Positions 2-43,294 of a stretch of 43,294 bases of DNA are shown piece by piece. The notes beneath the pieces are model-generated. The model saw only the letters and a program-made list of their open reading frames with translations. It made no database searches and was not told the origin of the DNA. Positions within the stretch are counted from its first letter, which is position 1. Each line of letters begins with the position of its first letter. The DNA comes from Candidatus Saccharimonadota bacterium (GTDB lineage Bacteria; Patescibacteriota; Saccharimonadia; Saccharimonadales; Saccharimonadaceae). Where the stretch lies: contig WRHJ01000006.1 of assembly GCA_009783305.1 (NCBI GenBank), positions 1-43,294 on the forward strand. Direction: 5' to 3'. Made by a program: the position numbers and the translations under genes.

Positions 2-3000
2 AATCTTTCTGTCTCATTAATCATTACTTTTGCCTTCTCATTACTTATCACTACTATAGTAGGCATTATCGTCAATCAACAATCTCCCACTAGCACTTCT
101 GCTCTGCCTCCTACTCCAACTATTACTTATACAGGACCTACTGGTGGAGCCTGGACTACCGGAACTAACTGGGATACTGGTGTAGTACCAGCCAGTACTG
201 ATGATGTCCTGATACCTTCCTTAAACGTTGCATTAGTCATACCAGACAATACTAATGTTACTGTTAATTCCTTAACTCTAACTGGTAACAGTATTCTTAC
301 TATTAGCTCAGTCAATACCGGAACATTACAAGTAGGTAGTCCTATTATTACTAAGCTCATTACTACTACCGATATTTACCTAGAAGATACCAGTCAAATC
401 ACCTCCCCCACCAACACAGCTACTACAGTAACTCCTTATACAGTTAACTTAGATGTTGGAGGACTATTATCTATTGCCACCAACGCCAAGATTGATGTCA
501 CTGGGAAGGGGTTTGCGGGGGTTACTGCCTATCAGGCTAACCCAGGTAACAGCGGAGCCAATATTGGACTGTGCACTACCGGTTCCGGTAGTCTTTATGG
601 TACGATTGGTGGTCAATATGGCGGGCAAGGTGGCTTATCTGGCACTACATGCACTACTTCTGCTACCTATGGTGATTTTATGATTCCAATTGACCTTGGT
701 TCCGGTGGACGATCTAGACTTTATGGCAATAGTACTTATGGTTCTGTCACTTCCGGTGCCGGTGCCATACGCGTCAACGCTAGTTCTGTCGTCCTCAATG
801 GTTCCATTGTTGCTAATGGCACCAATAATACTGATAGCGGTACAGGTAGTTGGGTTTCCGCTGCTGGTGCCGGCGGGGCTATATATGTTACGGCAAATCA
901 GGTATCCGGCACAGGGAGTGTTAACGCTAACGGCGGTAATACTACCGGTACCGGTGCCGCTAACTACGGCCCCGGCGGTGGCGGGAGGATAGCGATCGTC
1001 ACCACGGGAACGAATTCTCTCGCTGATTCTCAATATTCAGCGACATCAGGGTCTAGAGGACAAGGTGGGTATACTGACGCTTTGGCTGGGGCCGCGGGAA
1101 CAATCTATATTAAAAATGGTTCCTCTAACTATGGTAATCTCATTATTTCTAATGCCAATCGTACTGCCTCTAGCTCATCTGCTCGAACCGGTTTAGGATC
1201 CAATTCTCCCTATCAGTTTGATAGTCTAACCATTACTAACGGTGGCCGTATAAATTTAACTGGCAATTTAACAGTCACATCTTACAATTTTCAGGGCAAC
1301 TATTCTTCTTTGATTGTTTCCGGAACACTTACTTACACTACCTCCAACAACTTCATCCTAAACACCAACAACTTCTATCTCACAGTAGGAAGTCTCACCA
1401 ACACTAATACTAATCTCACAGTACAGAATACTAGTAATAATCCTAGTAATACTGCTACTGGTAACCAGGTAGTTATTAACTCCTCTCAATCTCTTAATAG
1501 CGTAGATATTAACAATGACTCTGGTATTTTCACTGTTAATGGTAATCTCACTATAGCTCAAGGCGTAGATATCGCTAGTAACTCCTCTACTAATACTATT
1601 ACTGGCGATCTTGCTGTTGCAGATGATGTTACGATCTCCGGCAACTCCTCTACTAACACTATTAATGGTCGTATTACTGCTACTAATCTCTATATATCTG
1701 GAACCAGTGCTAACTCTACTGTTGGTTCTGCTTATCTCACTGATGACATAGCCCTGACTGACGGTACCACCACTATTTGTTCTATTACTGCTACTACTTC
1801 TGGATCAGGAGCTGGACTCACTACTTCACTCAATACCATTAACGTTAGTGCCGACAATCTTACTCTTAGTGGTACTGCCGTACTGACCCACTGCACTAAC
1901 ACGGCTACTGCCACTAGCATAAATACGCTTAATATTGATCTATCTGGTGATCTCACTATACCTTCAGGTGCCAGTATTGATGTGACGGGGAAAGGATATG
2001 CTGGTGTCGCTGTCTATAATGCTGCCGTCGGTAATAGTGGTGCCAACATAGGTGCATGTAACAGTTATGGTGCCATTGGTGGTCAGTATGGTGGGCAAGG
2101 CGGACTAGCAGCCGGTTGCATCATTTCAGGCACATACGGTAACTTCATGGCACCTATTGATCTTGGATCGGGCGGGCGATCTAGATTTCAGGCCAACGCA
2201 AGTTCTGGTTCTGCATCCGCTGGCGGTGGTGCTATTAACATTAATGCTAGTTCGGTCATTATCGATGGTTCTATTGTTGCCAATGGTGTAAATAATAGCG
2301 GCGGCGGCGCCGGGGCTAACTCGGCTTATGCTGCCGGTTCTGGTGGGGCTATATACATTACTGCAGATCAAGTTTCTGGCGCCGGTAACCTACAAGCCAA
2401 CGGTGGTAGCACCACTAGTTCTACTGCTGGTGGTAGCTATGGCCCCGGCGGTGGCGGGAGAATAGCAGTCATAACTACAAGTGTTAATTCTCTAACTACC
2501 TCCCAATACCAAGCAGCATCGGGGGCCAGAGGAGCAGGTGGATACGGTGGAACTCTAGCTGGAGCTGCTGGAACTATTTATATTTTCGATGATCAATCAT
2601 CTGTTTACGGTACATTAATAATAACCAATGCTAACCACGCCGCCGCCGATACTACAGCAGTAACCAGTACAATATCTGCTCCCCTCTATCAGTATGATGA
2701 ATTAGTTATAACGCAAGGCGGCCGACTGTCTCTATCCGGTAACGTCGAATTTACTAATTACGATTTTCAAGGGGATTATTCTACTCTCATTACTACGGGT
2801 TCAATGACGTATACTACTTCTAACGATTTCGTCATTGATACGAACTATTTCACGCTTGATGTAGGTAGTATTGCAAATATAAATACTAATTTTATAATTC
2901 GTAATTCCAATAATAATCCCAGTAATACTTCCACCGGCAATAAGGTTACCATTAGCTCGTCTCAGCAGCTCAATAGTGTGGATGTCAATAACAATTCCGG

Positions 3001-6000
3001 CACCTTTATCATAAATGGAGATTTTACGGTAATTGAGGACGTAAATATTTCTGGTAATTCGTCCACAAATACGTTCCTGGGCGATATTGATGTGGGTGGA
3101 AATCTTGCCCTTGCTGGGGCTGGTACAACTAATACTGTAAATGGTGTTGTTAACGTTACTGAAGATATTATCCTCACCGACGGCGTAACTACTATTTGTT
3201 CGACTACTGCCTCAACCATAGGATCAGGTGCTGGGCTGACTACTTCACTAAATATTATAAACATTAGCGCCACCAACCTTGAGCTTAATGGTGCCGCTGT
3301 ACTTACGCATTGTACTCAAACTTCAGCCACCGCTACAAGTCTCCGAACTCTCAATATCAATCTTTCCGACACATTAATTATTGCTAGTGGCGCTAGGATC
3401 GATGTCGCAAGTAAAGGATATTCCGGAATTAGTGCCTATCAATCTAATCCTGGTAATAGCGGCGCTAATATCGGCTCATGCACTACTGGTTCCGGTAGTC
3501 TTTACGGAGCCGTTGGTGGTCAATACGGTGGTCAGGGTGGTTTAGCTGGCACTACATGTAACACTACTGAGTCTTATGGTGATTTTATGGCTCCTACTGA
3601 TCTAGGTTCTGGTGGACGGGTACGAATCTACTGCAATTCTACTTGTGGTTCCGTCACAGGTGGTGGTGGTGCTGTTCGTATAAATGCCAATTCCGTTACT
3701 CTAGACGGTTCCATTATTGCCAATGGAACCAATAATAGTGATAGCAGTACTGGTAGTTGGGTTTCCGCTGCTGGCGCAGGCGGAGCTATTTATATAACAG
3801 CAGATACTATATCCGGCATGGGCAATCTTATATCAAATGGCGGCAATACTTCTGGTGCTGGTGCCGCTACCTATGGACCCGGTGGTGGCGGTAGAATAGC
3901 AGTTATTACTACCGGGGTTAATTCTCTTACTACGTCTCAGTACCAGGCAGCATCAGGATCCAGGGGTTACGGCGGTTATAGTGGTACTTTAGCTGGTGCT
4001 GCGGGTACTATCTACATTTTTGACAGCTCTTCTACGTACGGTACGCTCATCATTGGCAACGCCAATCATGCTGCCGCCGATACTGCTGCGTGGACTAGTA
4101 CTGTCTCGTCTTCTCTATATCAATATGACGAACTAGTTGTCATTGAAGGCGGACGCCTTAATCTTAATGGGGATCTTGAATTTACCGCATACGACTTTCA
4201 GGGCAACTATTCTACTCTTACCGTATCTGGTTACATGGACTACACTACTTCCGACGACTTTATTCTAGATACCAATAACTTTTACATAACCGTCGGCAGC
4301 ATTGTAAATACAAGTACTAATCTCATTGCGCGAAATACTTCTGCAGGCGGAACATCCACGGGCAATAAAATTATCGTTAACTCCTCGCAACAGCTTAATA
4401 GTGTGGATATTAACAATAATTCAGGCATCTTTACTATTAATGGCAGTCTAACCGTAGCTGAAAGCGTAGATATTGTAGGAAATTCATCTACCAATACCAT
4501 TACTGGCACTTTAGCTGTTACCGACGACATCAATATTTCCGGTAACTCTACTAACAATACTATTTCTGGTTTAGTTACTGCTACCAATCTCAATATCTCC
4601 GGTACTTCCCATAACAGTACTATTAATAATCGCTTGGTTATTACAGACGACATCACATTAACTGACGGCACTACCACAGTTTGCTCAATTACTGCCACTA
4701 CTTCTGGATCGGGAGCTGGACTCACTACTAGTTTAAACACTGTCAATGTTAGTGCCGATAATCTCATGTTAAATGGCACTGCTATTCTTACGCATTGTAC
4801 CAATACTGCTACTGCTACCAGCCTAAATACCCTCAATATCAATCTTAATGATACTCTATCTATAGCAAGTGGTGCTAGCATAAATGTTAATGGTAAAGGA
4901 TATGCCGCAGTAACTGCCTACCAGGCTGTTCCGGGCAATAGCGGTGCTAACGTGGACCCCTGTACTACTGGTTCCGGTAGTCTTTACGGAGCCGTTGGTG
5001 GTCAATACGGTGGTATAGGTGGTCAATCTGGTACTACTTGTAATCCTACTGGTACCTATGGCAATTATATAGCCCCGATAGACCTTGGTTCCGGTGGGCG
5101 AGCACGAATCTACTGTAATTCTACTTGCGGCTCGGCCACATCTGGCGCTGGTGCTGTTCGCGTTAATGCTGGCGCAGTCATTGTCGACGGTTCAATCATT
5201 GCCAATGGAATCAATAATAACGACAGTAGCACTGGTAGCTGGGTTTCCGCTGCCGGCGCTGGAGGAGGAATCTACATAACTGCAGGGCAGGTTTCAGGTA
5301 ACGGGAACCTAACGGCTAATGGTGGCAATAACACTGGTGCTGGCGCTGCTAACTACGGCCCCGGCGGCGGTGGACGCATCGCTATCAACAATGGTACCTG
5401 GATCACCAGTATCGATGCTGATCATGGTCTGCTGATCGGAGGCAACACAGTCACAATAAGTGGAGGAGGCTTTGCTGATGGTACAGGAGTAATTGGCCCC
5501 AGTGGTACTGGTCCTACTGCCTTCTTCTTTGGAGGAAAGCCAGCTACTAACGTTGTCTTTCTGGATGAACATACAGCTACTATGAGAGTACCAGCTGGAG
5601 ATGCTCCTGGAGAAGTCGATGTCGTAGCTAGTAATAACAACAGTGATCTTGATGGCATTACACTATCTGGGAATATCACAGTAGCTGCAGGTACAAGAGC
5701 AGCTGGTACAGGGACTGCTGCAGAGGTAGGTACGATCTTCATGCGTAACTCGCTAGCATTATCTGCCTATACCTACAATGATGCTACTATGGCGATCTAT
5801 CTAGATGACATTTGTGCAGGAGTAGATGGACTGATCCTTAGTCTCACTCCACTACCAGGAGGAGGAGCTATCAGCAATGGTAGTTGTACAGCTAATGTCT
5901 TTAATGGTGATCCTAATGGCTTTTCTCTATCTATCTCTACAGACGAAACAACCTGGGACATAGCCTATCCTCTTCAACCTATTGGTAATGGTACTACTAC

Positions 6001-6319
6001 AGGCATCCTCAGTAACCCCATCGCTCTTACTCCTGGTACTATCGGCTTTGCCTTTCCTACTACACAGACTAACAGCACTGGTCTAGTACCCTCAAACTTC
6101 AATGCTACCTATCCTATTGTGCACTCACTAGCTAGTGCCTCCCACACTAACCTCTATGCTAGAATCCCAACTCTCAGTAGTCCACTAACCATCAAAACCA
6201 CAACTGGTACTCATCCTGATGGAGACTTTACTACACTCATCATAGGAGGCAATGCTAATATGACTATACCTACTGGAGAGTTTAGTTTTACGTTATTGTT
6301 TAGTGTTGTGGGGAATTAA
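2..6319 (+). CDS. giant repeat-containing surface protein with TIG domain, 5' end outside window
   Basis: The frame is open from the first bases of the window, so this is the 3' part of a longer gene; 2105 codons are visible and it ends at TAA 6317-6319. The first visible residues are a hydrophobic stretch (about residues 5-25) followed by a Ser/Thr/Pro-rich stretch, like a signal peptide or anchor, so the true start is probably just upstream. The body is very rich in Asn, Thr, Ser and Gly and is built of units of about 474-495 residues starting near visible residues 165, 660, 1134 and 1628; the fourth is cut short. Each unit has a Gly-rich part (GGQYGGQGG, DLGSGGR, GPGGGGRIA) and a beta-helix-like part with short NTxxG repeats and paired Cys. 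A TIG/IPT domain (GGNTVTISGGGF then FFFGG) follows at about 1800-1880, then an unrecognised C-terminal domain. Inferred role: exported fibre or adhesin. The exact binding partner cannot be seen. Confidence 0.85.
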   Translation, partial: NLSVSLIITFAFSLLITTIVGIIVNQQSPTSTSALPPTPTITYTGPTGGAWTTGTNWDTGVVPASTDDVLIPSLNVALVIPDNTNVTVNSLTLTGNSILTISSVNTGTLQVGSPIITKLITTTDIYLEDTSQITSPTNTATTVTPYTVNLDVGGLLSIATNAKIDVTGKGFAGVTAYQANPGNSGANIGLCTTGSGSLYGTIGGQYGGQGGLSGTTCTTSATYGDFMIPIDLGSGGRSRLYGNSTYGSVTSGAGAIRVNASSVVLNGSIVANGTNNTDSGTGSWVSAAGAGGAIYVTANQVSGTGSVNANGGNTTGTGAANYGPGGGGRIAIVTTGTNSLADSQYSATSGSRGQGGYTDALAGAAGTIYIKNGSSNYGNLIISNANRTASSSSARTGLGSNSPYQFDSLTITNGGRINLTGNLTVTSYNFQGNYSSLIVSGTLTYTTSNNFILNTNNFYLTVGSLTNTNTNLTVQNTSNNPSNTATGNQVVINSSQSLNSVDINNDSGIFTVNGNLTIAQGVDIASNSSTNTITGDLAVADDVTISGNSSTNTINGRITATNLYISGTSANSTVGSAYLTDDIALTDGTTTICSITATTSGSGAGLTTSLNTINVSADNLTLSGTAVLTHCTNTATATSINTLNIDLSGDLTIPSGASIDVTGKGYAGVAVYNAAVGNSGANIGACNSYGAIGGQYGGQGGLAAGCIISGTYGNFMAPIDLGSGGRSRFQANASSGSASAGGGAININASSVIIDGSIVANGVNNSGGGAGANSAYAAGSGGAIYITADQVSGAGNLQANGGSTTSSTAGGSYGPGGGGRIAVITTSVNSLTTSQYQAASGARGAGGYGGTLAGAAGTIYIFDDQSSVYGTLIITNANHAAADTTAVTSTISAPLYQYDELVITQGGRLSLSGNVEFTNYDFQGDYSTLITTGSMTYTTSNDFVIDTNYFTLDVGSIANINTNFIIRNSNNNPSNTSTGNKVTISSSQQLNSVDVNNNSGTFIINGDFTVIEDVNISGNSSTNTFLGDIDVGGNLALAGAGTTNTVNGVVNVTEDIILTDGVTTICSTTASTIGSGAGLTTSLNIINISATNLELNGAAVLTHCTQTSATATSLRTLNINLSDTLIIASGARIDVASKGYSGISAYQSNPGNSGANIGSCTTGSGSLYGAVGGQYGGQGGLAGTTCNTTESYGDFMAPTDLGSGGRVRIYCNSTCGSVTGGGGAVRINANSVTLDGSIIANGTNNSDSSTGSWVSAAGAGGAIYITADTISGMGNLISNGGNTSGAGAATYGPGGGGRIAVITTGVNSLTTSQYQAASGSRGYGGYSGTLAGAAGTIYIFDSSSTYGTLIIGNANHAAADTAAWTSTVSSSLYQYDELVVIEGGRLNLNGDLEFTAYDFQGNYSTLTVSGYMDYTTSDDFILDTNNFYITVGSIVNTSTNLIARNTSAGGTSTGNKIIVNSSQQLNSVDINNNSGIFTINGSLTVAESVDIVGNSSTNTITGTLAVTDDINISGNSTNNTISGLVTATNLNISGTSHNSTINNRLVITDDITLTDGTTTVCSITATTSGSGAGLTTSLNTVNVSADNLMLNGTAILTHCTNTATATSLNTLNINLNDTLSIASGASINVNGKGYAAVTAYQAVPGNSGANVDPCTTGSGSLYGAVGGQYGGIGGQSGTTCNPTGTYGNYIAPIDLGSGGRARIYCNSTCGSATSGAGAVRVNAGAVIVDGSIIANGINNNDSSTGSWVSAAGAGGGIYITAGQVSGNGNLTANGGNNTGAGAANYGPGGGGRIAINNGTWITSIDADHGLLIGGNTVTISGGGFADGTGVIGPSGTGPTAFFFGGKPATNVVFLDEHTATMRVPAGDAPGEVDVVASNNNSDLDGITLSGNITVAAGTRAAGTGTAAEVGTIFMRNSLALSAYTYNDATMAIYLDDICAGVDGLILSLTPLPGGGAISNGSCTANVFNGDPNGFSLSISTDETTWDIAYPLQPIGNGTTTGILSNPIALTPGTIGFAFPTTQTNSTGLVPSNFNATYPIVHSLASASHTNLYARIPTLSSPLTIKTTTGTHPDGDFTTLIIGGNANMTIPTGEFSFTLLFSVVGN
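494..5390 (+). repeat. long in-frame tandem repeats inside the giant surface gene
   Basis: Equivalent codons of the IDVTGKG-type motif lie at 494, 1979, 3401 and 4883, giving spacings of 1485, 1422 and 1482 bp, all multiples of three. Three full units and one partial unit are present. The Gly-rich segments are the most alike between copies, for example the GSLYGAVGGQYGG stretch near 3495 and 4975. Copies have diverged at many synonymous and some coding sites, so the duplication is not recent. Confidence 0.9.
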
Positions 6320-39050: not shown

Positions 39051-42000
39051 GTGTTAAAGTTTTCAAAACAAAAATTCACCCCCCCCCTCCCCAATCGCGA
39101 CGGATACAGTCGAATCGCAAGATCTTTGCATTTACCTGTCCAAAATATCCTTTGTAAACTCCCCGCAATTTTCGCAGTCATTGTTTTACTTACCCATATA
39201 GCCCTCACGGCTATTTTTAATCTCATAAATGTCTCCGCTTTCAGCGTCTTCTCTGTCACTCCTAACACCGGCCCGCTCGCTGGCGGCAATCTTATTACTA
39301 TCTCCGGCTCCGGTTTTGATATCCCCACTCCTCAGCCAATCGATTTTTCTTCAGGTGGCACCTATACAGCGACTTATCCCGGCAAATATAAGCTTGAAGT
39401 TTGGGGCGCTCAAGGCGGCGGCAGCGGTACCAACGGCGGTAGAGGCGCCTATGCCACAGGTATAATCACCTTAAATAGAAATGATGCCCTAAGTGTTGTC
39501 GTTGGCTCTAGAGGCAGTATCAAAACCGGCACCGGACCAGGCTATACCGGCGGCGGCATTACCTATATATCACTTGGCAGTACACGAATGGTAATTGGTG
39601 GCGCCGGCGGCGGTCAGGGCGGCAATGGCTGGAGCGATTGGGGCGGAACTTCAACCGGCGCCAATGGCGGCGTAGGCACAGGAATTACTACCGTTGCTAA
39701 CGCTGGCAATGGCAATGGCGGACAGTGCGCCGGCGGTGGCGGCGGGGGCACGCAGACCGCCGGGGGTACTGGTGGGACTGCAAATGCGAACACCATATCC
39801 CAAGGTACAGCAGGAACGATAAATTCGAATACCGGTCAAGGCGGCAACGGCGGAGCGGGTTATTACGGCGGCGGCGGCGGTGCTTCTGGCTGTTATTATC
39901 CGACTTCAGGCTCAATGACTCAATCTGGCAATAGTGGGGGTTCTGGATCCTTAAATAATGGTGGAACCGGGGGCGGCGCCTCTAGCCCCACTTTACGAAA
40001 CGCTACAGGCGGCGCTGGCGGCGGCGGTGGTTCATCCTATGCCGACCCAAATTTGGAATCCAGGTCTGGCGTTGCCGGCAGTGGAGTTATGCCAGATCCC
40101 GCCAGCACAACTGGCGGCACCATGACAGGTCGGGCTGGCAACGGTTATGCCCGCATCACGCCAATGGTCACCGTTGACGTTCAGATGGGCATTGACCCGA
40201 TTAGTCAATGTACTGACGTAACCATAGTCAATCCCACTACCATCACTTGTATTGCACCTGCCCACTCTTCTGGGTACGTCAACGTACACGTCACCATCAA
40301 CGGTGAAAGAACCACTTTGATCAGGGGATATAGATATTTTGATCCTCCCACCGTTACTTCCGTCACCCCCAACACCGGCCCCACTGCCGGTGGCACCAAT
40401 GTCACCATCACCGGTACCAACTTTGCTATGTCAAACGTCAGTATCGTCCAAGCCGCCACCGGCCAATATATTTCTCTCGCACGCGATAATAAAGGCAATC
40501 TCTACTCTTGGGGAAGTAATGCAAGCGGTGCACTTGGAGTGGGGACTACCACTGGTCCTGAAACCTGCGGCGCATATAGTTGCTCAATGTCACCCATAAA
40601 GATTTCTGATGGTGCCATCCCCTCTTCTCCCCTAACCGCTGGCATTAACATCACGCAGATTGCAGTTGGCTACGAGTCTGCCTATGCTCTCGACGATCAA
40701 GGCAATCTTTACGCTTGGGGTCTAAATAATCTTGGCCAACTTGGTACTGGCAATACCACTAGCTCAAGTCTCCCAATCAAAATCTCCAGTGGCGTTATAC
40801 CCGGTTCGGCTCTAACTGCTGGTATTAATATTGTTAAAATTACCGCAAGTTCCTATAACACTTACGCCATTGACGATCAAGGCAATCTTTACGCTTGGGG
40901 ATCCAATGACAGCGGGCAACTTGGCATAGGTACAACTAGCGGCCCGAACACCTGCACCGTCACCCCCAGCTCATATTCGTGCTCCACGTTGCCCATCAAA
41001 ATTTCCGATGGCGCCATCCTCAGCTCCCCTTTTATCGCAGGAGTCAATATTACCCAAGTCGCCTACAGTAGCGCCAATTCTTATGGCCAAGCATTCGCTC
41101 TAGATGATCAAGGCAATCTTTATGCCTTCGGCGATAATAGGTCAGGCCACCTAGGTGACGGTACCACCATAACCCGCGCCCTTCCTTTTCAAATTTCTGG
41201 CGGCGTTGTTGCCAGTTCAGCCTTAACTGCCGGCATCAATATTATCAAGATTCAATCTAGCAGCACATTTGCCTCCGCGCTAGACGACCAAGGTAATCTC
41301 TATACTTGGGGCACAAACGCTGCTGGCCAGCTTGGCAATGGCACTACCGGTGGCTCCTCTATGCTTCCCATCAAAATTTCTGGTGGCACCATTATCAGTT
41401 CACCATTAACCGCTGGTGTCAAAATTGTCCAAGTCGCAACTGGCAGCCAGCATCAACTTGCCATCGACGATCAAGGCGTTCTTTACGCCTGGGGACAAGG
41501 CGGCAATGGTCAACTTGGCAATAACGACACCAGCACTAATTCCAGTCTCCCCATCCAAATCTCCGATGGCGCCATCGTTGGTTCGCCACTCACCAGTAAC
41601 ATCAATATCGACCAAGCTACAGCTGGCTACTATCAGTCCTTGATTATTGACGATCAAGGCAATGTTTATGCTATGGGAATCAATGGCCGCGGCCAGCTCG
41701 GCATCGGTAGTACTACCAACGCCGCCCTGCCCACGTTCGTTAACAGCGGTGCCTTTACACCCATACCTCCAGTTGTGACCTTTGGCGGCGCACCATGCAT
41801 CAATGTCGCAGTAGTCTCCGACACCGAAATCACCTGTACCACCACCACCCACATCAGAGGATATGTTGACGTTTCAGTTATGATTGAGGGGCACACTGCG
41901 ACTTTGTCTATGGGCTACAGATACCTAGACCCGCACACCGTCACCTCGGTCACACCTAATTTCGGCCCCGACACCGGCGGCACCGACGTCACCATCTCCG

Positions 42001-43294
42001 GCACTAATTTCGAGCAAGACTTTGAGTGGAAACAAATCTCCGCTGGCTTCGAACATACCTGCGCTATCAGCTTTGAAGACAAAGCCTATTGTTGGGGGTC
42101 TAATTGGTCCGGTCAATTCGGAGATAGCACTTCTCTCAACGAACGTCTCATCCCCACCGCTATCTCCGCCGGCAACACCGGCCTGCTCGACGGCAAAACT
42201 GTCAAACAAATCTCTACTAGCAATGAACATACCTGCGCCATCGCCTCCGACGACACCGCCTACTGTTGGGGAGGTAACGGTGACGGCCAACTTGGAGATA
42301 ACAGTTATACAGGTCATCTCGTCCCCACCCGCATCAGTGCCGGCAACACCGGCCTGCTCGATGGCAAAACTGTCAAACAAATCTCCACTGAAGGTTACCG
42401 CACCTGCGCCATCGCCTCCGACGACACCGCCTACTGTTGGGGAACTAACACCTCCGGCGGAATCGGAGATGGCACCTCTGTCACCAATCGTCCCGTCCCC
42501 ACCGCCATCTCCGCCGGCAATACCGGCCTGCTCGACGGTAAAACCGTCAAATACATCTCCACTGGCAGTCATACCTGCGCCATCGCCAGCGATGACACCG
42601 CCTACTGCTGGGGGGATAACCACTCCGGCGAAATCGGCGATAACACCTCTGGCACCAGTCGTCTTGTCCCCACCGCTATCTCCGCCGGCAACACCGGCCT
42701 GCTCGACGGTAAAACCGTCAAACAAATCTCTGCTGGTGTCATGCATACCTGCGCCATCGCCAGCGATGACACCGCCTACTGTTGGGGGCACAATGGTCAA
42801 GGCCAACTCGGCGATAATACCATCACCCAGCGTCTCATCCCCACCGCCATCAGCGCCGGCAACACTGGTCTGCTCGACGGCAAAACTGTCAAGCACATCT
42901 CCGCTGGCGCCAACTCCGTCTGTGCTATCGCCAGCGATGGCACCACTTACTGCTGGGGCTATAACGGCAACGGTGAACTCGGAGACAATACTCAAACTGA
43001 TCGTCGTATTCCCACTCTCATCTCCGCCGGCAACACCGGCCTGCTCGACGGCAAAACTGTCAAGCAAATCTCCGTTGGCTATCAGCACGCCTGCGCCATA
43101 GCTGACAACAATCACAGTTACTGTTGGGGAGGCAATTGGGAAGGCCGGCTAGGCGATGGCACTGACGATGAACGCCTCATCCCCACCTCAGTCGATGTCT
43201 CAGACCTTGTCCTTCCCATCATCACCTTCGATCCCACCGGTACTCCAACTCTCTGTACTGACGTTGTCGTAGTCAGCAGTACTCAGATCACCTG
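39051..43294 (+). CDS. giant surface protein: split TIG domains with Gly-rich and RCC1 propeller inserts, 3' end outside window
   Basis: The frame is open to the window end (1414 codons visible). The stop TAA at 39039 leaves GTG 39051 as the only start before the membrane segment; this start is tentative because no ribosome site is clear. Layout: basic N-region, hydrophobic export segment (about 37-62), TIG1 first half (from 69, SVTPNTGPLAGGNLITISGS), Gly-rich lectin-like domain (93-371, PGKYKLEVWGAQGG), TIG1 second half, TIG2 first half (433-463), RCC1 propeller 1 of seven blades (464-903, DDQGNLYAWG), TIG2 second half, TIG3 first half, RCC1 propeller 2 of seven blades (992-1385, CAIASDDTAYCWG) and the start of the TIG3 second half. 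Propeller 2 blades carry paired Cys, suggesting disulfides outside the cell. Probable host-contact or adhesion protein (inference). Confidence 0.85.
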   Translation, partial: MLKFSKQKFTPPLPNRDGYSRIARSLHLPVQNILCKLPAIFAVIVLLTHIALTAIFNLINVSAFSVFSVTPNTGPLAGGNLITISGSGFDIPTPQPIDFSSGGTYTATYPGKYKLEVWGAQGGGSGTNGGRGAYATGIITLNRNDALSVVVGSRGSIKTGTGPGYTGGGITYISLGSTRMVIGGAGGGQGGNGWSDWGGTSTGANGGVGTGITTVANAGNGNGGQCAGGGGGGTQTAGGTGGTANANTISQGTAGTINSNTGQGGNGGAGYYGGGGGASGCYYPTSGSMTQSGNSGGSGSLNNGGTGGGASSPTLRNATGGAGGGGGSSYADPNLESRSGVAGSGVMPDPASTTGGTMTGRAGNGYARITPMVTVDVQMGIDPISQCTDVTIVNPTTITCIAPAHSSGYVNVHVTINGERTTLIRGYRYFDPPTVTSVTPNTGPTAGGTNVTITGTNFAMSNVSIVQAATGQYISLARDNKGNLYSWGSNASGALGVGTTTGPETCGAYSCSMSPIKISDGAIPSSPLTAGINITQIAVGYESAYALDDQGNLYAWGLNNLGQLGTGNTTSSSLPIKISSGVIPGSALTAGINIVKITASSYNTYAIDDQGNLYAWGSNDSGQLGIGTTSGPNTCTVTPSSYSCSTLPIKISDGAILSSPFIAGVNITQVAYSSANSYGQAFALDDQGNLYAFGDNRSGHLGDGTTITRALPFQISGGVVASSALTAGINIIKIQSSSTFASALDDQGNLYTWGTNAAGQLGNGTTGGSSMLPIKISGGTIISSPLTAGVKIVQVATGSQHQLAIDDQGVLYAWGQGGNGQLGNNDTSTNSSLPIQISDGAIVGSPLTSNINIDQATAGYYQSLIIDDQGNVYAMGINGRGQLGIGSTTNAALPTFVNSGAFTPIPPVVTFGGAPCINVAVVSDTEITCTTTTHIRGYVDVSVMIEGHTATLSMGYRYLDPHTVTSVTPNFGPDTGGTDVTISGTNFEQDFEWKQISAGFEHTCAISFEDKAYCWGSNWSGQFGDSTSLNERLIPTAISAGNTGLLDGKTVKQISTSNEHTCAIASDDTAYCWGGNGDGQLGDNSYTGHLVPTRISAGNTGLLDGKTVKQISTEGYRTCAIASDDTAYCWGTNTSGGIGDGTSVTNRPVPTAISAGNTGLLDGKTVKYISTGSHTCAIASDDTAYCWGDNHSGEIGDNTSGTSRLVPTAISAGNTGLLDGKTVKQISAGVMHTCAIASDDTAYCWGHNGQGQLGDNTITQRLIPTAISAGNTGLLDGKTVKHISAGANSVCAIASDGTTYCWGYNGNGELGDNTQTDRRIPTLISAGNTGLLDGKTVKQISVGYQHACAIADNNHSYCWGGNWEGRLGDGTDDERLIPTSVDVSDLVLPIITFDPTGTPTLCTDVVVVSSTQIT
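39079..39087 (+). repeat. nine-cytosine homopolymer near the start of the giant gene
   Basis: A run of nine C starts 28 nt after GTG 39051 and precedes the export segment. With nine C the long frame is open. A change by one or two bases would cut it off. Confidence 0.9.
40440..41757 (+). repeat. seven RCC1 repeats, propeller 1
   Basis: Seven units with the core DDQGNLYAWG and GQLGxGTT, separated by LPIKISxGxIxxSxLTAGINI-type linkers. Units are about 58-75 residues because two carry Cys-containing extra loops. Confidence 0.88.
42024..43217 (+). repeat. seven RCC1 repeats, propeller 2, highly alike in DNA
   Basis: Seven units of about 56-59 residues with CAIASDDTAYCWG and ISAGNTGLLDGKTVKQIS. 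The linker is nearly identical in DNA, GGCCTGCTCGACGGCAAAAC recurring with few changes, which points to recent duplication or gene conversion. Confidence 0.9.

Follow-up and report, generated by a model that had tools for sequence, protein, structure and literature searches.

TIG domains split by inserted RCC1 and glycine-rich heads in a candidate surface display protein of Saccharibacteria

The last gene of contig WRHJ01000006.1 (assembly GCA_009783305.1, Candidatus Saccharimonadota bacterium) encodes a hydrophobic N-terminal segment and then three TIG domains, each of which seems to be broken by several hundred residues of other sequence. Do the fragments on either side of each insert close into one domain that carries the insert as a side domain, and what would such a chain be for? 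The stretch analysed, called the window here, is the whole of this contig (C6; 43,294 nucleotides), one of seven in a 788-kb genome, and the gene lacks its 3' end. An initial annotation had described three TIGs in a row, each interrupted at the same place, first by a Gly-rich domain and then by two seven-bladed RCC1 propellers. The parts of the gene are as follows.

39051-43292, + strand: open reading frame (ORF) of the split-TIG protein; GTG start at 39051 or in-frame TTG at 39126; open at the contig end
39126-39242, + strand: hydrophobic N-terminal segment (LPAIFAVIVLLTHIALTAIFNLI), signal-peptide-like or anchor-like as read from the sequence; comparable segments lie ahead of TIG in relatives
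39243-39320, + strand: TIG1 N-half; 30.1 bits alone; closes with the TIG1 C-half in the model
39321-40166, + strand: insert 1, 282 residues, predicted ALK/LTK-type glycine-rich domain (GRD; TNF-like plus Gly-rich); Pfam PF12810 at 39375-39947; model match to ALK GRD and LTK
40167-40337, + strand: TIG1 C-half; 37.6 bits alone; joined TIG1 70.1 bits, profile positions 3-84
40347-40430, + strand: TIG2 N-half; 40.7 bits alone
40431-41768, + strand: insert 2, 446 residues, predicted seven-bladed RCC1 propeller; seven RCC1 repeats; model match to UVR8
41769-41924, + strand: TIG2 C-half; 42.9 bits alone; joined TIG2 81.6 bits, profile positions 1-84
41934-42017, + strand: TIG3 N-half; 33.7 bits alone
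42018-43211, + strand: insert 3, 398 residues, second set of seven RCC1 repeats (Pfam)
43212-43292, + strand: start of the TIG3 C-half, 27 residues and then the contig end; 10 bits alone; joined TIG3 40.9 bits, profile positions 2-54

The bit scores come from a local TIG hidden Markov model (HMM) trained on 29 intact TIGs from this and related genomes, with no split TIG included. N-halves and C-halves (N1 to N3 and C1 to C3 below) align to complementary stretches of this HMM, and the joined halves score like intact TIGs (median 60.9 bits, n=169), while 300 shuffled joins reach a maximum of 10.0 bits and shuffled ORFs give 0 TIG matches against 285 in real ORFs. The description of three serially interrupted TIGs is thus borne out, TIG3 being incomplete in the assembly, and the TIG2 half peptides quoted in the initial annotation lie where it had placed them. 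Pfam reports five partial TIG (PF01833) stretches above its cut-off in the window protein; once joined, TIG1 and TIG2 match, at the level of sequence, the family profile over its length. Each split falls in the loop that joins the VTITGTNF-ending strand to the VxFGGxPC strand, and the length of this loop also varies in intact TIGs. The flanking motifs proposed earlier hold insofar as the break precedes a VxFGGxPC-type strand, but the TIG1 C-half is degenerate and reads VQMGIDPISQC in its place. C1 and N2 are separated by three residues, the usual gap between intact tandem TIGs.

The identity of the inserts was also as described, and the Gly-rich one could be placed further, in the ALK/LTK type. 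Its match to ALK_LTK_GRD (PF12810) scores 24.5 bits, exactly the curated cut-off of 24.5, and 27.7 bits in a second profile search; a homologous insert in locus L026 scores 123 bits. The genome contains two other ALK_LTK_GRD matches, both on contig C2. Pfam finds 14 RCC1 (PF00415) repeats, arranged as two sets of seven that are ~31% identical to each other, and every RCC1 repeat found in the genome sits in this gene.

Two separate AlphaFold2 models were built, each with a spare half so that permuted pairing was possible; a single 938-residue model from a combined alignment of all units was dropped, as MAFFT had put GRD rows on the RCC1 unit. Model 1 (N1-GRD-C1-N2; 414 residues) has a mean predicted local distance difference test (pLDDT) score of 66, with the TIG1 halves mostly at 78-93. 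Its best solved matches are single IPT domains: the plexin A1 IPT superposes on N1+C1 over 88 residues at 1.4 Å (Z 14.2; model residues 2..373). Human ALK GRD (7ls0) matches residues 35..315 in between (Z 13.4, root-mean-square deviation (rmsd) 3.4 Å, 183 residues), as a result of which TIG1 is predicted to close across its insert. The LTK TG domain (7nx1) matches insert 1 as well. On this model TIG1 would have the IPT fold, and insert 1 the TNF-like plus polyglycine fold of the ALK/LTK type.

Model 2 (C1-N2-RCC1-C2-N3; 628 residues, mean pLDDT 85.5) contains a propeller immediately flanked by N2 and C2, which matches UVR8 (Z 54.8, rmsd 1.4 Å, 364 residues, model 90..531), and insert 2 is accordingly modelled as a closed seven-repeat RCC1 propeller. 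The fold search with model 2 returned a match list filled by RCC1 chains, with no entry for TIG2 itself, and searches of VIA and BFVD with the RCC1-unit model gave RCC1-type folds only, among the matches listed. Because RCC1 folds fill the list, closure of TIG2 is argued from its joined profile score, strand content and model confidence: with C2 present (model 2), N2 forms three strands at pLDDT about 79-90, while without C2 (model 1) it forms two at 62-77. C1 likewise stands at 78-93 with N1 and at 68-87 without it. The proposal that the two halves of every TIG come together, leaving the insert to one side as a domain of its own, is therefore right for TIG1 on the model and well supported for the others, TIG2 through the score of the joined halves, its strands and relatives with a single TIG.

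The split-TIG architecture is real and recurrent. A TIG search of 101 genomes was positive in eight, the window genome included, and the suggested search for TIG halves flanking inserts in other candidate phyla radiation proteins was productive. Drawing on regions of genomes G046, G047, G050, G055 and others, together with loci from wider searches, we detected 36 N-C split pairs (window TIG2 counted) in seven Patescibacteria genomes, with inserts of 145 to 805 residues. All are interrupted at the same stretch of the TIG HMM, and at least four head families occupy this one site: RCC1, ALK/LTK-like, Fib_succ_major and LamG-like. ALK_LTK_GRD matches among the heads reach 135 bits, while those to Fib_succ_major (E 2.5e-5, 1.5e-7 and 1.3e-4) and Laminin_G_3 (E 6e-5 and 0.03) fall under the Pfam cut-offs, curated in the case of Fib_succ_major.

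The closest named relatives are gut metagenome-assembled genomes (MAGs) of Candidatus Saccharibacteria, several of them from termites. Heads may be mixed within a chain, as in L062, which reads TIG[RCC1]-TIG[FISUMP]-TIG[FISUMP]-TIG[FISUMP] and whose insert, the longest of the set, conceals a missed C-half and N-half, or uniform, as in L096 from a Termes hospes gut MAG, with five split TIGs carrying RCC1 heads and one intact TIG. Genome G379, from a different family of the same phylum, encodes two split TIGs, and each of nine G046 paralogues has a split TIG as its only TIG. In these paralogues the heads have a mean identity of 56%, compared with 72% and 69% for the TIG halves. Outside this phylum, about five TIGs in the genome of Bacteroidia bacterium MS495-6 are interrupted at this very loop, and the LamG-like heads among them (L108, L112, L114, L119) are related in sequence to heads in Saccharibacteria L048, L068 and L026; best E values between an MS495-6 LamG-like head and three Saccharibacteria proteins, among them the window genome's own C2 gene, are 5e-18 to 2e-11.

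Two loci depart from the simple arrangement. In L054 (1935-4148, - strand), the order is N-half, Gly-rich domain, intact TIG and C-half, which looks like an outer TIG with both middle domains inside it. The 2367-residue protein at L026 (6210-11999) has a split TIG with a GRD head and then a long repeat series, in which the TIG HMM finds no match.

How else might the halves be paired? If the chain were circularly permuted, each C-half would join the following N-half (C1 with N2, C2 with N3), and permuted TIGs would alternate with independent heads without any nesting. The three residues between C1 and N2, and the fact that the chain supplies a permuted partner for every internal half, speak for such an arrangement, although the same three-residue gap is ordinary between intact tandem TIGs. 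Permutation is excluded for the nine G046 paralogues, each having one split TIG and no second one, and with L049 and L056 at least 11 relatives hold exactly one N-half and one C-half and nothing else to pair. In L026 gene 2, moreover, an unrelated domain comes next after the C-half, and model 1 formed a TIG from N1+C1 although N2 was present. We give permutation almost no credence. Slightly more room, but still very little, is left for halves that are separate short beta modules, linkers or hairpins resembling pieces of a TIG; Pfam alone does give only partial TIG matches, and VxFGGxPC is no longer present in the TIG1 C-half. Against this, the halves cover complementary parts of the profile and, once joined, score as intact TIGs do, TIG1 superposes on the plexin IPT, and the halves are more conserved than the heads across paralogues. 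None of the data agrees with halves that do not pack together or that stand as short beta domains of their own.

An alternative that keeps the nested architecture concerns the heads, which may be structural spacers, enzymes or inhibitors instead of adhesive domains. No ligand is known for any head, and RCC1 folds also act as exchange factors, scaffolds and enzyme inhibitors, with beta-lactamase inhibitor protein II among the fold matches here. Binding is the better fit to the diversity of heads at one site, the several heads per chain, the sorting-like tails of relatives and the precedent of an RCC1 propeller as adhesin in PilX2 (see below); other roles remain compatible with these features, and we regard a non-adhesive function as unlikely but worth keeping in mind.

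The window protein is, in our judgement, probably an exported, adhesin-type surface display chain of split TIGs with ligand-binding heads. Each link would be one TIG (IPT) Ig-fold domain that accepts a complete folded domain in one loop, closes from its two halves and maintains the chain axis. The inserted head would project sideways, attached to the TIG by both ends and exposed on its far face. The proposed heads, RCC1 propellers and TNF-like/Gly-rich domains, are folds that recognise ligands elsewhere, and the likely role of the chain would be multivalent binding of a Saccharibacteria epibiont to a host cell or gut surface. Because all heads use one insertion site, they would be replaceable.

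Several points weigh against this proposal. In insert 1, pLDDT is <50 for the Gly-rich part (most of model residues 134-272), and N3, although its partner half is absent, still stands at 67-84 in model 2. Both models rest on shallow alignments, of 8 and 19 rows, in which nested relatives are included. Independent superposition covers the closure of TIG1, and that of TIG2 and TIG3 is supported less directly. Binding, export and localisation of the window protein are inferred, and its gene ends at the contig edge, so its C-terminus is missing. Among the contig ends checked, none overlaps the window end by at least 15 bases.

In relatives L045, L049 and L056 the C-terminus consists of xPNTG, a membrane segment and a basic tail, which suggests, on sequence, sortase-type anchoring there. 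The nine single-TIG[RCC1] paralogues of G046 (L036-L043) end instead in (V/I)PNTG followed by a few residues, a sorting-like motif without the membrane segment.

Comparison with known systems clarifies which features are shared. Plexin, MET and bacterial surface IPT/TIG domains have the same profile, fold and three-residue spacing in tandem arrays, but the IPT/TIG domains in the solved structures matched here are contiguous, while those of the window protein are split. The RTX adhesins Marinomonas MpIBP and Vibrio cholerae FrhA contain split Ig-like domains, which turn ligand-binding domains away from the axis (PMC10865825). As modelled, the window protein appears to share with them an Ig-like beta-sandwich interrupted by an inserted domain, with the head pointing outward from a long chain. 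The RTX adhesins carry PA14, peptide-binding or sugar-binding heads, in contrast to the RCC1, ALK/LTK-like, Fib_succ_major or LamG-like heads of the window protein and its relatives. The carrier here is a sequence-recognisable TIG/IPT, used serially with one head per link, and the part present is without RTX repeats; Pfam matches include no RTX family in this protein, whose C-terminus is missing from the sequence.

In Nanosynbacter lyticus, PilX2 is an RCC1-propeller pilin, the one minor pilin required for function of the type IV pilus T4P-2; it is proposed as the T4P-2 adhesin in Saccharibacteria, and T4P-2 function raises the host-binding rate (PMC12206443). PilX2 and the window protein share a seven-bladed RCC1 propeller in a Saccharibacteria surface structure, which for the window protein is a predicted setting. 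The two are set apart by description: the PilX2 propeller is an additional C-terminal pilin domain, while the window propellers sit inside TIGs, and no pilin family occurs among the Pfam matches of the window protein. The ligand-binding TNF-like/Gly-rich domains of ALK and LTK share their fold with insert 1, which is here nested in a TIG of a candidate bacterial surface chain. TNF-like/Gly-rich tips are also proposed to recognise phage hosts (phage fibre Pam3 gp24; PMC9608196), and insert 1 may share their fold. It is from the RTX adhesin, PilX2 and phage-tip precedents, together with the anatomy of the protein, that we infer a multivalent attachment chain.

The initial annotation had considered this design foreign to described families. 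The principle does have a described parallel in the split Ig-like domains of RTX adhesins; for a split TIG, or for chains in which TIGs act as sockets for several head families, we found no description in the open-access papers searched. These papers returned nothing relevant on TIG with RCC1, nested TIG or TIG insertion, an absence that is weak evidence.

Elsewhere in the window, neighbouring genes are ordinary by Pfam (phosphoglycerate kinase, UvrD-type helicase, exonuclease, RNase J, dUTPase). For the split-TIG protein itself, NCBIfam gave no relevant family (a weak match to a ribosomally synthesised and post-translationally modified peptide precursor spans nine residues and was put down to chance), and PADLOC gave nothing. 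Three long paralogues (window 2-6319, L028 and L031; about 2000-2100 residues) have extended repeats within them and, close to the C-terminus, a single intact TIG; at E 0.001 Pfam assigns no family to the window copy. At the ends of contigs C1, C3, C5 and C4 (L024, L025, L029 and L030, respectively), the breaks fall inside paralogues that share a stretch around VLEDFKAIPLPDGPPDTINSSS, followed by one or two intact TIGs and a Fib_succ_major-like domain. This repeat family probably caused the assembly breaks.

Little is settled about how Saccharibacteria recognise their hosts and hold on to them. One insertion site that takes at least four kinds of head defines a recognisable architecture, and therefore candidate recognition proteins can be listed by sequence. 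Profile annotation misses split TIGs, each of which shows up as two weak fragments. It also becomes possible to produce each unit on its own, as one TIG with its head, and to set the heads of different species side by side. More tentatively, and with the balance somewhat against it, the one TIG loop may be a general socket in which recombination swaps heads of unrelated folds, both inside a genome and between phyla (Saccharibacteria and gut Bacteroidia). If this hypothesis is correct, it would give these epibionts a combinatorial repertoire of host-recognition chains.

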